Shown: positions 2,556-5,341 of the stretch, one piece after another
Layout of the letters: the number at the start of each line of letters is the position of its first letter
Position numbering within the stretch: the stretch's first letter is position 1
Assembly (NCBI GenBank): GCA_019242465.1
Contig: JAFAVL010000231.1
Coordinates: 1-5,341 of the forward strand
Source: Chroococcidiopsidaceae cyanobacterium CP_BM_RX_35
GTDB taxonomy: Bacteria; Cyanobacteriota; Cyanobacteriia; Cyanobacteriales; Chroococcidiopsidaceae
Direction: 5' to 3'
Length of the DNA: 5,341 nucleotides
Translations under genes and position numbers: made by a program
The notes under the pieces: generated by a model
The model's database searches: none
Seen by the model: the letters and a program-made list of their open reading frames with translations, nothing else
What the model was told of the DNA's origin: nothing

Positions 2556-2792
2556 CTAACAGTGGTCTTCCAACCAATCCATCAAATCCGGCACTGAGGA
2601 GAAATCTAGCAACGCCTCCCCCAACTCCTCCAATTGCTCAACGCGAAGTTGCTGGAGCTGTGAGCGCACCTCTGGAGCTAGCTGACCTAGCCGCCGTGAT
2701 AGCTGACGTAGAACTAGGGATGCCTCTCCTTCTTGACGACCCTCTTGATGTCCCTCTTGAAGAATTTCCTGGTATATGACTGACTCTCGCAT
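2556..2792 (-). CDS. Possible internally initiated C-terminal Rpn product (inhibitor-like small protein)
   Basis: Codon 199 of the Rpn gene is an ATG (2792-2790) with GGAGG five nt upstream (complement of 2798-2802), a stronger start signal than that of the full gene, which begins at TTG. Translation there would give 78 residues: a short helix, the EGHQ/EGRQ hinge and the whole DUF4351 domain, without the nuclease core. In E. coli Rpn systems, a C-terminal protein from an internal start binds and inhibits the full-length toxin, and the geometry here is the same. The surrounding residues REELMRES are common in the family, so the Shine-Dalgarno-like bases may only reflect the codons. Expression is inferred. 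Confidence 0.35.
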   Translation of the reverse strand: MRESVIYQEILQEGHQEGRQEGEASLVLRQLSRRLGQLAPEVRSQLQQLRVEQLEELGEALLDFSSVPDLMDWLEDHC

Positions 2793-3386
2793 GAGTTCCT
2801 CCCTCAAAAACCGTCGAATCAAGTCCTTGTCAAACTTTAACCCCGCTAATATCTGAGTATACGCTGAGATCTCCCGTTGCTGCCCTGGTTCCTCAATTAA
2901 CTCCACTTGAGCCGCTACTTGCTGTAGCAAAGACGCAGGTGCATTTGTTCGTGCCAAGACTGCTAGTGGTAGCAGTCCGGGATTAGCTAGTAGAGGTGCT
3001 GGATCTTGTTCCCAGATTCGGATCACCCGATACGGATGCACGGTATTTCCTACAGCAAATTGCTCAGTGAAAACAACTTCAGAGGAGGTGGGTTTGAGGA
3101 AAATCACCACTTGCTCGATGGGGCAACGGTACTTGCGGTACAATCCAACCCAATAATCCAACATTCGCAAAGGGATAGGTGGGTTAGATTGAGGTTCTGT
3201 TTGGAACTCAACCTGCAAAATTCGACCAAGTTGCGGCAGAAAATAAACAGCATCAGAACGAATCGACTCCCGATTCAGCTCCTTTGGCTCTTGTTCGATG
3301 TCTTCTGCGTTCACGTAGCCAAGCCACTGCACGAGGGCAGAGGGATATTCAGCCGCGATGCGTTTCAATACACTGTCGTAGGGCAA
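2556..3386 (-). CDS. Rpn-family recombination-promoting nuclease / putative transposase-like protein with DUF4351
   Basis: A 276-residue member of the Rpn (PD-(D/E)XK, formerly 'transposase_31'-like) family, abundant in cyanobacteria. The nuclease core is visible in IRSDAVYFL (42-50, D45) and ILQVEFQTEP (56-65, E60-x-Q62, Gln where many PD-(D/E)XK enzymes have Lys). The family block PLRMLDYWVGLYRKY follows at 72-86 and VVIFLKPTSSEVVF at 93-106. Next come a helical region (145-205), a charged hinge of EGHQ/EGRQ/EG repeats (211-220) and the DUF4351 helices (221-276). The start is TTG at 3386, with AGGA 12 nt upstream. An in-frame TGA at 3410-3408 leaves no ATG or GTG alternative. In E. coli, Rpn proteins are DNA endonucleases that promote RecA-independent recombination and act in phage defence. 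The gene follows the replication-like pair after a 114-bp gap holding no gene. No terminal inverted repeats flank it, so I do not call it an insertion sequence. Confidence 0.85.
   Translation of the reverse strand: MPYDSVLKRIAAEYPSALVQWLGYVNAEDIEQEPKELNRESIRSDAVYFLPQLGRILQVEFQTEPQSNPPIPLRMLDYWVGLYRKYRCPIEQVVIFLKPTSSEVVFTEQFAVGNTVHPYRVIRIWEQDPAPLLANPGLLPLAVLARTNAPASLLQQVAAQVELIEEPGQQREISAYTQILAGLKFDKDLIRRFLREELMRESVIYQEILQEGHQEGRQEGEASLVLRQLSRRLGQLAPEVRSQLQQLRVEQLEELGEALLDFSSVPDLMDWLEDHC
2728..2763 (-). repeat. Three 12-bp tandem units in the Rpn hinge
   Basis: Three adjacent 12-bp units (2728-2739, 2740-2751, 2752-2763 on the + strand) share the core CTCTTGA or TTCTTGA. They encode successive EG-x-Q tetrapeptides joining the nuclease part to DUF4351. 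The unit is a multiple of three, so it is an ordinary coding expansion. Copy number of such EGxQ units varies among family members. Confidence 0.7.
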
Positions 3387-3500: not shown

Positions 3501-4025
3501 TCATCTTGCTTTAGTGCTGCCATTAAGAGCCATCTTTGGCGAAAGTGCTTGCACCATTTCTGTTGAGTGCAAATCAACAGTTAGTGATGGTGAAAAACTT
3601 CTAACATTAGTGGTGGAAGTAGATTTCCACGCCGCGACAAAATCTTTTTTCAACCAGCGCAGCTCTTCCTCCGTCGCCAAGCCCAACTTGTACAGTCCAC
3701 CTACCAGTTGTAATGCCGATTGACCTGGGGCAGAGAGTTGAGCAACCATGTCTCTATCATTCCTGGCAGCAGCTTTGCTCAAAAGCTCCCATTCATGCAA
3801 TGCCTGTGTTTCTGAGTCGCCTTTAACTGCACTGACGAACTCTTCCACTGTCGGGAAAAAACGACAGTTGTCAAAGACGGCGATCACTGCTTGTAAAAAC
3901 TCTGCGGTAGTGAGCTGTTGTGAGAGCCTTTGATGCAACCGTTGCAATGTTGCCTCCTCAAAGTCTCGGTTAAACCAATCCATCAGAATGCCAATCTCTT
4001 CCAAGAAGACTTGTTGGTCAATCAT
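3501..4025 (-). CDS. Small protein with helicase-loader-like features, second gene of a replication-like pair
   Basis: A 174-residue protein that I cannot assign to a named family with certainty. Residues 6-66 are helical and end in FFPTVEEFV (56-64), after an FxxAVxxxFDNC helix. This pattern recalls the N-terminal fold of phage G39P-type helicase loaders (…KFPPTxxE…). Residues 75-133 (ALHEW…A…LVGGLYKLG…EELRWLKKDFVAAWKS) recall the W/GG/L-K-F pattern of a domain (DUF6475-like) found beside phage replication genes. The last 40 residues are a Ser/Thr-rich tail. The ATG at 4025 overlaps the upstream TGA by one base and has GGAGG seven nt upstream. The GTG one codon earlier would be only four nt away, so ATG is preferred. 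Coupling to the winged-helix gene suggests a joint role, perhaps loading DnaB helicase; this is inference. Confidence 0.7.
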   Translation of the reverse strand: MIDQQVFLEEIGILMDWFNRDFEEATLQRLHQRLSQQLTTAEFLQAVIAVFDNCRFFPTVEEFVSAVKGDSETQALHEWELLSKAAARNDRDMVAQLSAPGQSALQLVGGLYKLGLATEEELRWLKKDFVAAWKSTSTTNVRSFSPSLTVDLHSTEMVQALSPKMALNGSTKAR

Positions 4026-5176
4026 CACGATACCTCCATCCCTATGGCACGGGCAATTTTGGCTCTCCGGGCAGCAGCTTTGGCTGTGAGAGAACTCGTA
4101 GCGGCTGAGAAGTCATCAGCAGCATGGCTTGATTGCATTGCCTCCCACTCGATATTCAGCTCCTCGCGGCGTTTTAGGTCGTAGCGGCCTGCGCTGATAT
4201 GCTTACGAACCTTGGTCAGCAGCTCCCCGAACATCAGGTTTTGGTAGGCTGGGTACTGCATCAGACTTCGCGCCATGTGCTTTTCAAACTCTGAGTCAAA
4301 CACACCTCGCTTGGTTGTGTCCCACGGTAGGTGATCGCTGCCATCCAGGTGTTTGGAATACTGCGGCTGGTTCTTTTGATAACGATTTGGGTGGTCTTGA
4401 GGAGCGACGGAACAATTATCCCCAGCAGGATTTTTTGTTTCCAGGCAGTGAGTTTTAGCTTGAAACTGCTCCTCACAACCGTGATTGTTTGCTAACTCCT
4501 CCTCAGACAACTTTTCAACCTTTCTGGGATTTGCACGCTCACCCGGCTGTTTTTCCTCTGGTGGGGGGTAAGGGGGGTAGGTGTTGTAGTCTCTGCTTGT
4601 AGTCTGTGTAGTAATCTGTGTATATAGATTGCTTGCAGGGTTGCTGCTGACTTGTGTGCAGGGTTCCTGCTTACTTGCTTGCAGGATTTGTGCCGACTTG
4701 ATTGTAGGATTCCTGCTTTCAATAGTGTTTGTTTCCTGCCAACTTGATTGCAGCATCTCTGCGTTATTGTCTGTGGGATTGCGACATGCTTTAATGCAGG
4801 AATCCTGCATTATGGCAGAATCAATGCTGGGCAAGAGTTCTAATTCTTTTGCTCCGACTGGCTTTTTCAAGTAGCGAGGTTGAGTAGTGACTCTACGGTC
4901 TGGTTTCTGGGTCAGCTTAGTATCCTCAATTAAGGGCTTTTCTACCTGATGTTCCAGAAAAAAAGTCCAGCGGTTCTCCAGCTCATCTTCATCAAGCCAA
5001 AATTCTAACCGCCGGGGTAGTCCACTGTAGCGCTCCTTAATGAGATTCCGTTGGCGCAACAAGCGTCGAGCCGTTTCTTGCTCAGTACGACTCAATCCAG
5101 TTTCGGTTTCAATATCGGCTTGAGTCTTGTAAATCCAGCCAGTAGGATCGTCTTGCTTGCCCTGCCAATAGTACAT
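4025..5176 (-). CDS. Winged-helix protein of replication-initiator type containing an iteron-like DNA array
   Basis: A 383-residue protein. Residues 1-65 (YYWQGK…GWIYKTQADIETETGLSR, TEQETARRLLRQRNLIKERY, SGLPRRLEFWLD) form a winged helix like that of phage and plasmid replication proteins, which share the phrases YWQG, W-YKT, GLSR-EQ-TAR and LP-RL. Residues about 120-181 are encoded by 23-bp tandem repeats, and 182-290 are Thr/Pro/Gln-rich and probably disordered, with a YPPYPPPEE stretch. Residues 292-350 (VFDSEFEKHMARSL…GELLTKVRKHISAGRYDLKRREELNIEWEAMQ) form a compact helical domain seen in cyanobacterial relatives. It overlaps the next gene by one base, giving a two-gene operon. No Shine-Dalgarno sequence precedes ATG 5176. 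The frame upstream is open to TAG 5221-5219 and reads CNLFLCQ just before YYWQG, which looks family-like, so the 5' end may be truncated. The proposed role is binding its own repeats to start replication; the alternative is a transcriptional regulator. Confidence 0.75.
   Translation of the reverse strand: MYYWQGKQDDPTGWIYKTQADIETETGLSRTEQETARRLLRQRNLIKERYSGLPRRLEFWLDEDELENRWTFFLEHQVEKPLIEDTKLTQKPDRRVTTQPRYLKKPVGAKELELLPSIDSAIMQDSCIKACRNPTDNNAEMLQSSWQETNTIESRNPTIKSAQILQASKQEPCTQVSSNPASNLYTQITTQTTSRDYNTYPPYPPPEEKQPGERANPRKVEKLSEEELANNHGCEEQFQAKTHCLETKNPAGDNCSVAPQDHPNRYQKNQPQYSKHLDGSDHLPWDTTKRGVFDSEFEKHMARSLMQYPAYQNLMFGELLTKVRKHISAGRYDLKRREELNIEWEAMQSSHAADDFSAATSSLTAKAAARRAKIARAIGMEVS
4033..4037 (-). 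promoter_or_regulatory. Shine-Dalgarno site deciding the start of the loader-like gene
   Basis: The complement reads GGAGG, seven nt before ATG 4025 and four nt before GTG 4028. The spacing favours ATG. The site lies inside the last codons of the upstream gene, whose TGA shares one base with the ATG, so translation is probably coupled. Confidence 0.7.
4560..4634. other. AT-rich tract and G-run tract next to the 23-bp array
   Basis: Bases 4600-4634 are about 31% G+C (11 of 35), clearly poorer than the surrounding gene. They contain two near-identical 12-bp units (4600-4611 and 4612-4623, 10/12 identical). Bases 4560-4583 hold two runs of six G on the + strand, flanked by GG doublets, and encode the proline-rich stretch on the other strand. 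The AT tract could serve as a DNA unwinding element beside iterons, and the G runs could fold or pause a polymerase. Both roles are inferred; coding constraint alone could explain the Pro tract. Confidence 0.3.
4635..4818. repeat. Tandem array of eight 23-bp palindrome-based units (iteron-like) inside the winged-helix gene
   Basis: Units begin at 4635, 4658, 4681, 4704, 4727, 4750, 4773 and 4796, exactly 23 bp apart. The + strand consensus is the core GCAGGATTCCTGC plus the spacer TTACTTGATT. The core is an inverted repeat GCAGGA-N-TCCTGC. By eye, matches to the 23-base consensus are about 18, 21, 19, 17, 17, 15, 14 and 15. The unit at 4796 has a perfect core (GCAGGAATCCTGC). The array decays at both ends. 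Because 23 is not divisible by three, the units pass through all three frames and the protein repeats only every 23 residues (RNPT-x3-A-x2-LQ-S motif). Units some two helical turns apart are typical of iterons. A selfish palindromic repeat that invaded a tolerant linker is the main alternative. Confidence 0.85.
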
Positions 5177-5190
5177 CTGGCAAAGGAATA

Positions 5191-5240
5191 GGTTACAACT
5201 GGTTGCGGGTTTTAAATTCTAGGAGAAATTGTCTGTAACC
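5191..5240. repeat. Inverted repeat upstream of the winged-helix gene, possible operator
   Basis: GGTTACA (5191-5197) and TGTAACC (5234-5240) are perfect 7-bp inverted arms bounding 50 bp. Between them AATTCT-AGG-AGAAATT forms a smaller imperfect palindrome (5215-5230), which also contains TAGAAT on the minus strand (5221-5216), a good -10 hexamer although no good -35 precedes it. A further GGTCATAACC lies at 5255-5264. The cluster sits where the promoter of the two-gene operon should be. Autoregulation by the winged-helix protein is possible but not shown. Confidence 0.35.
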
Positions 5241-5341
5241 CTTTGTCCGAGCGGGTCATAACCAACAACCGCTAAAATGACTCCAGTCGATTGGTTTGGA
5301 TACGTGACCGTAGTGATAATGCCTCAAGCTTGCACCTGGAA
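5222..5341. other. Intergenic sequence upstream of the replication-like operon, no gene seen
   Basis: No frame here gives a supported gene. A minus-strand frame is open from the TGA near 5325 to the TAG at 5221-5219 but contains no ATG, GTG or TTG. A + strand ATG at 5277 runs off the window after 21 codons with no recognisable sequence. The stretch probably holds the rest of the control region. Confidence 0.4.

Follow-up and report, generated by a model that had tools for sequence, protein, structure and literature searches.

The window analysed here, a stretch of DNA of 5,341 nt, carries eight repeat units in exact 23-bp register within the coding sequence of an O-like initiator gene, and we consider it probable, on the basis of sequence comparisons, that this array serves a plasmid- or phage-type replicon as its origin of replication, located within the gene of its own initiator. 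Arrays of similar period are found at the same place in many related genes, their sequence is associated with a residue of the recognition helix of the encoded protein, and they are followed by a conserved tract, CAGAGAYTAC.

An array in 23-bp register within a coding sequence

The units (consensus TGCAGGAWTCCTGCA plus spacer) occupy positions 4630–4813 and are part of a minus-strand ORF. A preliminary description had placed the array at 4635–4818; the eight units and their register proved real, while the position was slightly off. It had also assigned GCAGGA-N-TCCTGC to all units, which is true in full for the only one with a perfect 15-bp palindrome (4791–4813, minus strand; 15/15 of TGCAGGAWTCCTGCA), the other seven being imperfect, with 10–13 matches out of 15. 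The lag-23 identity over 4629–4820 was 0.574, a value reached by none of 5000 synonymous shuffles in which the protein was kept (mean 0.385, sd 0.035, maximum 0.527); base and codon shuffles, for which any lag from 12 to 59 was allowed, did not exceed 0.459 and 0.431, respectively. This agrees with the earlier proposal that the order is maintained at the DNA level while the gene stays open: the units are read through all three frames, the ORF is open in every phase of the unit, and the pure consensus would indeed give rise to a TAA in one frame. The window thus shows what was looked for in an embedded origin, namely in-register repeats inside a coding sequence that are kept at the DNA level. 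Tandem Repeats Finder, the check suggested at the outset, reported the first four units and missed the others, and a repeat-family search carried the array family across the remaining ones. A register-blind motif scan of the window gave a weak signal (7 matches with up to three mismatches vs 3.2 expected), with a single match, with three mismatches, outside the array. The significance of the array is therefore due to its register and not to the plain motif count, and the scattering that would have pointed to a repeat unrelated to the gene was not observed in the window.

The initiator gene and its 5' end

The array-bearing ORF (4025–5176, minus strand) codes for 383 aa from the first ATG and comprises a winged helix, a linker containing the array and a C-terminal helical domain, as judged from PHROG 9773, its relatives and the model of the homologue P0003. 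The profile phrog_9773 ("replication initiation O-like") matched the N-terminus of the ORF with an E-value of 4.9e-16 and the complete homologue P0003 with 2.8e-29, in support of the earlier designation as a putative initiator; Pfam and NCBIfam gave nothing above their cut-offs for the window ORF. A protein search with the ORF retrieved 45 proteins, including the window's own, and the C-terminal part (LPWDT...RKHISAG...RRDELLIEWEAM) was also present in proteins with other N-terminal domains. In the AlphaFold2 model of P0003 the N-terminal domain (residues 1–112) is confident and has the elements of a winged helix in order, the C-terminal domain is helical, and the linker (114–314) mostly has a pLDDT below 50. 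With a mean pLDDT of 59 only the domains of this model are usable, and given the low confidence of the linker the array would encode a stretch of protein that is predicted to be unstructured. A fold search returned no match below an E-value of 0.001. The recognition helix is predicted at 5051–5089 (minus strand; helix 65–77 of the P0003 model, coordinates obtained by arithmetic from the ORF), and its residue T31 in the window ORF corresponds to T66 in P0003 numbering. One database protein, P0038, is an O-like initiator with linker repeats that carries a DnaA N-terminal domain (PF11638) at its end, which suggests that helicase-recruiting C-termini can be swapped.

Homology between the window and P0003 begins at 5194, so that the ORF matches the O-like profile with an incomplete N-terminal domain, the window having no counterpart of the ~29 residues with which the homologue starts. 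The sequence at 5195–5341 (minus strand) is unrelated to the N-terminus of the homologues and has an in-frame TAG ahead of the frame leading into NLFLCQ-MYYWQ. Candidate explanations for this 5' sequence are a rearrangement, a contig artefact or a real variant; no Rfam match up to an E-value of 0.5 pointed to a structured RNA or intron at the junction. Because the N-terminal residues are missing, the window copy of the initiator may be inactive. That the window holds a truncated, decaying copy, its origin having lost its function, is a serious possibility that falls short of being probable: the imperfect array units are in line with it, as are the missing residues and the start of P0002 and P0010 at the same Met as the window ORF (MYYWQ; known from the proteins, not from upstream DNA), while the register, the open frame through all units and the tract copies described below have been kept. 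Even such decay would leave the nature of the array in the family uncontested.

Arrays in related genes

For relatives known as proteins, the register was assessed by back-translation with the window motif against amino-acid shuffles (n = 200). P0001–P0004, P0007 and P0010 were compatible with eight units at 23 nt (mean 13.0–13.8 of 15) and P0005 with five units, i.e. 69 nt fewer; P0006 gave a weak signal only (four units at 11.0). None of the 200 shuffles reached the score of any of these proteins (P0001–P0007 and P0010). Loss of the register in close homologues, which would have spoken against DNA-level order, was thus not seen in these back-translations, the weak case of P0006 included. P0019 and P0029 beat the shuffles at 11/15 despite their own motifs being different, and P0008 and P0012, which have other N-terminal domains, did not beat them with the window motif.

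A survey at the DNA level started from 192 loci with an O-like domain, which, made non-redundant, left 99 genes. Of these, 53 had their best linker period at 23 bp, 14 at 45 bp, 8 at 22 bp and 6 at 46 bp (81/99 in total), and all 61 genes with z > 5.5 belonged to these four classes; the largest z among 99 codon-shuffled controls was 5.24. Consensus motifs were palindromic (6–7 of 7 pairs) in 16 of 64 genes, compared to 1.8% of shuffles. The layout is not peculiar to cyanobacteria, and the earlier view of it as a case new to this group was too narrow. The best period was a different one in 18 of the 99 genes, including the chromosomal cyanobacterial homologues, in which no array was found. Homologues in cyanobacterial genomes (L011–L015, L017–L019, L021–L028) have the N-terminal domain in common, no array and a different C-terminus; these array-less genes are possibly domesticated.

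One 8.2-Mb Symploca genome contains a relative, whose own motif occurred there at four sites with no more than one mismatch; each of them lay in the relative's array, and 11 two-mismatch sites were spread elsewhere. The C-terminal domain was detected in one species by a scan of genome contigs and in one of 386 cyanobacterial genomes, in both cases Symploca. Two loci (L008 and L001) combine a related C-terminal domain with another N-terminus and a 24-bp array (SDDGIVPN); in these, AGATCAGATCA repeats stand where the CAGAGAYTAC tract would be. At nine loci (L050, L082, L091, L096, L108, L115, L216, L227 and L237) the linker apparently has an extra HNH-like segment before the tract, with sequences such as HGMVCGCC... 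in O-like or similar initiators.

A conserved tract behind the array

Directly behind the array, and separated from it by an AT-rich step containing TATATA (4621–4629, minus strand), the window carries a tract (4586–4620, minus strand) that is a candidate unwinding or loading element. It consists of three copies of CAGAGAYTAC, CACAGATTAC (4611–4620), CACAGACTAC (4599–4608) and CAGAGACTAC (4586–4595), in different reading frames; the copy at 4586 is exact and the other two match at 9/10 positions. In the family the repeats follow each other at 11–13 bp, and a tract was recognised in 51 of 57 genes at a median distance of 4 nt from the array. Its AT fraction was 0.62, compared to 0.47 for the genes. 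The tract encodes (S/T)E(T/I/N)T repeats with a codon usage far from that of the rest of the same genes: GAG for Glu (98% vs 42%), ATT for Ile (100% vs 44%), AAT for Asn (100% vs 49%), TCA for Ser (97% vs 16%) and ACA or ACT for Thr (93% vs 49%). A site with at least 10 of 12 bases was present in 73 of 100 genes, compared to 15.5 (maximum 21) in synonymous shuffles. Exact CAGAGAYTAC had 136 occurrences, spread over 70 of the 100 genes, 124 of these sites lying in the linker region, and the distribution over the frames (127, 5 and 4 sites) indicates that the bases are kept where the amino acids differ. The reversed pattern occurred three times and the reverse complement never; in 445 kb of these loci beyond the initiator gene, one site was present (1.7 expected).

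In viral contigs, at least 120 stretches at no fewer than 80 loci carried the tandem tract, and of 79 distinct ORFs with it, one (L290) was clearly not an initiator among the matches listed. Among the matches listed for 60 non-redundant tract ORFs (threshold 1e-5), 50 hit phrog_6493 (DnaD-like) and 48 and 45 the initiator families phrog_428 and phrog_9773, respectively, from which it follows that many of these ORFs are kin to the O-like set; 3 of the 60 matched the HNH endonuclease family phrog_338. Other tract ORFs carry different N-terminal sequences. An array just upstream of the tract exceeded the 99% level of the shuffles (z = 4.94; 600 shuffles reached at most 6.68) in 51 of the 60 ORFs, with lags of 23 (38 ORFs), 24 (6), 22 (5) and 21 (2), again among the matches listed. 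In the 386 cyanobacterial genomes the tandem tract was found once, within the O-like gene L016. A 41-base tract query retrieved 161 phage and 58 plasmid records, a list that bottoms out at chance level and includes Proteobacteria, Cyanobacteria and Firmicutes among others; the tract accompanies diverse winged-helix initiators of these three phyla.

We propose that the tract is an unwinding or helicase-loading element. Tentatively, and as a matter close to evenly balanced, we further suggest that CAGAGAYTAC is an undescribed origin element of phages and plasmids across phyla, on which different initiators converge because it is read by a conserved host replication factor or in a common step, for instance strand-specific loading of the helicase. 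"Undescribed" is weakly grounded here, since the open-access literature, in which no title dealt with the array family or the tract, was searched with few subscription journals and preprints covered; searches of this literature with sequence words likewise gave no title on phage or plasmid origins. A different role is conceivable but rather unlikely, namely that the tract is no part of initiation and provides homology for the exchange of the DNA-binding domain together with the array. In line with this, from the tract onwards P0002 and P0008 share 86% identity across 189 aa (best E-value before the tract 0.019, not significant), P0003 and P0011 share 89% from the tract on (0.013 before it), and in both pairs the DNA-binding domain and the linker change together. 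Near-invariant tandem copies in distant phyla and in GC-rich genes, however, would exceed what rare recombination is expected to maintain, and the tract has the position of the AT-rich segment of lambda.

Two plasmids carried the tract in other settings. In pAQ4 of Picosynechococcus sp. PCC 7002 (L337), a CRISPR spacer at 2488–2521 contains the tract sequence TATATACAGAGATTACTACAGAGA in an array near cas2/cas1d; it seems that the cyanobacterium sampled the element from an invader. In the small Bacillus amyloliquefaciens plasmid pBSG3 (L336), which has its own annotated rep, CTACAGGGAAA repeats at ~740–845 are followed by two exact copies of CAGAGATTAC, all outside annotated genes; this may be a piece of a phage-type origin that lacks its initiator.

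The recognition helix is associated with the array sequence

The association between protein and array was determined over 57 loci with a clear consensus and 86 domain columns, with overall domain identity regressed out. The column X in [ST]R-X-EQ (Thr in the window), the second residue of the recognition helix in the P0003 model, predicted the motif best, with z = 9.67 vs 3.12 for the next of the other 85 columns, which served as control, in a permutation that ignores phylogeny. This column ranked first again when the q4/q5 clade was left out (42 loci; 7.31 vs 2.92) and second within that clade alone (15 loci; 3.94 vs 4.24). CCTGCA/TGCAGG was part of the consensus at all five loci with Thr (window included), at one of five with Ser and at none of the 47 others, and CGCCA/TGGCG at 11 of 17 loci with Arg, two of seven with Glu, one of three with Phe and none of the 30 others. 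Half-sites of the Tyr/Phe type were less clean (5/10 and 2/3), as they also occurred with Arg (2/17) and Ser (1/5).

The motifs closest to that of the window belonged to viral-contig loci with Ser or Thr (L073, L065, L087, L101 and L059), the domains of which are just 36–39% identical to the window's over 66 positions. At 11 further loci, the best motif neighbour with less than 65% domain identity shared the recognition residue in six cases (1.6 expected), compared to none of 11 for the best domain neighbour; in three of the five misses, Thr, Ala or Glu was paired with a Ser locus. A search by DNA only for two RRE-type motifs at 23 bp returned four viral contigs, of which two were known before; the motifs lay in O-like RRE genes in three and in another winged-helix, replication-type gene in one. 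A scan of viral contigs for a pair of perfect window motifs spaced 23 bp apart gave no stretch, the criterion being too strict to inform. Since the recognition-helix residue tracks the array sequence, O-like initiators very probably bind the arrays that their own genes contain, in the manner of lambda O and pSK41 RepA, which lends support to the binding sites postulated in the preliminary description.

Such binding might serve autorepression, incompatibility or copy-number control, with replication starting elsewhere. Iteron arrays outside origins act in this way in other plasmids; we nevertheless regard this as unlikely, as the array lies mid-gene and not at a promoter, and the place taken in lambda by the AT-rich segment is occupied here by a conserved tract. 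We reject the reading of the units as a repeat of the protein only, i.e. an expansion of a disordered linker: 69 nt correspond to 23 aa, so that protein repeats arise as well, but the signal is lost in synonymous shuffles, the unit is read in three frames and the motif tracks the recognition helix. A selfish or mobile 23-bp repeat that entered the gene by chance would likewise be tandem, with palindromic units, and is the least credible of all, given the same position and period with different sequences in many relatives and the confinement of the motif (at most one mismatch) to the array in the whole Symploca genome.

Model of the proposed origin and genomic setting

If the array is the origin, the winged helix would bind to the individual units, with a dimer probably occupying the palindrome, and units about two helical turns apart would assemble an O-some-like complex. 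This complex would open the adjoining tract, and the helicase would be loaded via the C-terminal domain and/or the product of the downstream gene. The linker can tolerate a DNA constraint in three frames because it need not fold.

The downstream gene (3501–4028, minus strand; 175 aa) overlaps the end of the initiator gene by 4 bp at its start and matched phrog_10105 (E = 2.7e-10) and, below the cut-off, DUF6475 (E = 0.0054). From its position only, we infer a helicase loader (P-like). It had five plasmid matches, all in Nostocales cyanobacteria, and no match in phages; the UmuC-like gene, too, had its best plasmid matches in cyanobacteria. In plasmid 5 of Nostoc sp. UHCC 0302, a helix-turn-helix gene, a relative of the 175-aa gene and an Rpn nuclease stand in an order resembling that of the window, with an initiator of another type. 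A Marinobacter plasmid has a "replication protein O" gene followed by a DUF6475 gene, and in Nostocaceae plasmids relatives of the 175-aa gene stand behind other winged-helix-type genes. At L342, L343 and L344, strong periodicities of 15, 36 and 15 bp were present and no CAGAGAYTAC tract was found; these periods are multiples of three and thus possibly reflect protein repeats. The genes of L345 were not convincing. The remainder of the window codes for a Y-family polymerase (IMS, 50–1036), a protein without clear family (1026–1526), a PD-(D/E)XK/Cas4-like nuclease (1584–2378) and a DUF4351 protein (2556–3386). Of the possible sources of the window, a cyanobacterial plasmid-like replicon is the most likely.

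From the odd repeat a testable rule emerges by which origins could be located in many phages and plasmids: a winged helix with its recognition-helix residue, an array of ~23 bp in the same gene, and then the tract. If true, the tract and a recognition-helix code for the iterons would allow such origins to be read from sequence, and in cyanobacteria they would offer candidate replicons for vectors. The data also suggest that the DNA-binding domain travels with the origin, as one cassette, onto a common C-terminal part, and they present CAGAGAYTAC as a DNA element conserved across phyla and a candidate target of some reader factor.

Comparison with known origins

For the staphylococcal phage 80alpha, an origin lying inside the initiator gene ORF20 is backed by genetic evidence, and ORF20-21 support autonomous replication (PMC5499656, in excerpt). 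Unlike the window, 80alpha has its strongest periodicity at 15 bp in the stretch examined, and gp20 gave 8/10 as best match to CAGAGAYTAC, with no exact copy in 6.5 kb. The DnaD recognition element of B. subtilis oriC, which is strand-specific and recruits a helicase-loading protein (PMC10201434, in excerpt), is a possible functional analogue of the tract. Its core consists of TnnT pairs, unlike the tract, in which these are not enriched (5.1 vs 5.2 per 36 nt in shuffles), and the tract is accordingly not counted as a DnaD element.

The N-terminal domain of pSK41 RepA binds four Rep boxes in the centre of rep, the origin-encoded part of the protein is a linker, and a chimeric rep gene was reported for pPR9 (PMC5703833, in excerpt). 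The window resembles this system in its mid-gene repeats and array-encoded linker. Structures of the RepA N-domain (4pql, 4pt7 and 5kbj) were among the weak fold matches, none below an E-value of 0.001, and the RepA_N Pfam domain was absent up to an E-value of 1 in the window ORF and 0.1 in P0003, which places neither in that family.

Lambda O, for which an in-gene origin likewise has experimental support, resembles the window in layout, with an N-terminal DNA-binding domain and iterons mid-gene. It differs in iteron sequence and in having four units, annotated at 39034, 39054, 39078 and 39101 and thus 20, 24 and 23 bp apart, and no close CAGAGAYTAC was found in it (best 8/10). According to the part of PMC7466680 available, a lambda iteron is an imperfect 19-bp inverted repeat, the iterons are followed by an AT-rich segment, and two extra iterons in lambda-related phages add 13 aa. 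An origin inside an initiator gene is thus of a kind already known; new, as far as the searched literature goes, are the family-wide array, associated with the recognition helix, and the conserved tract.
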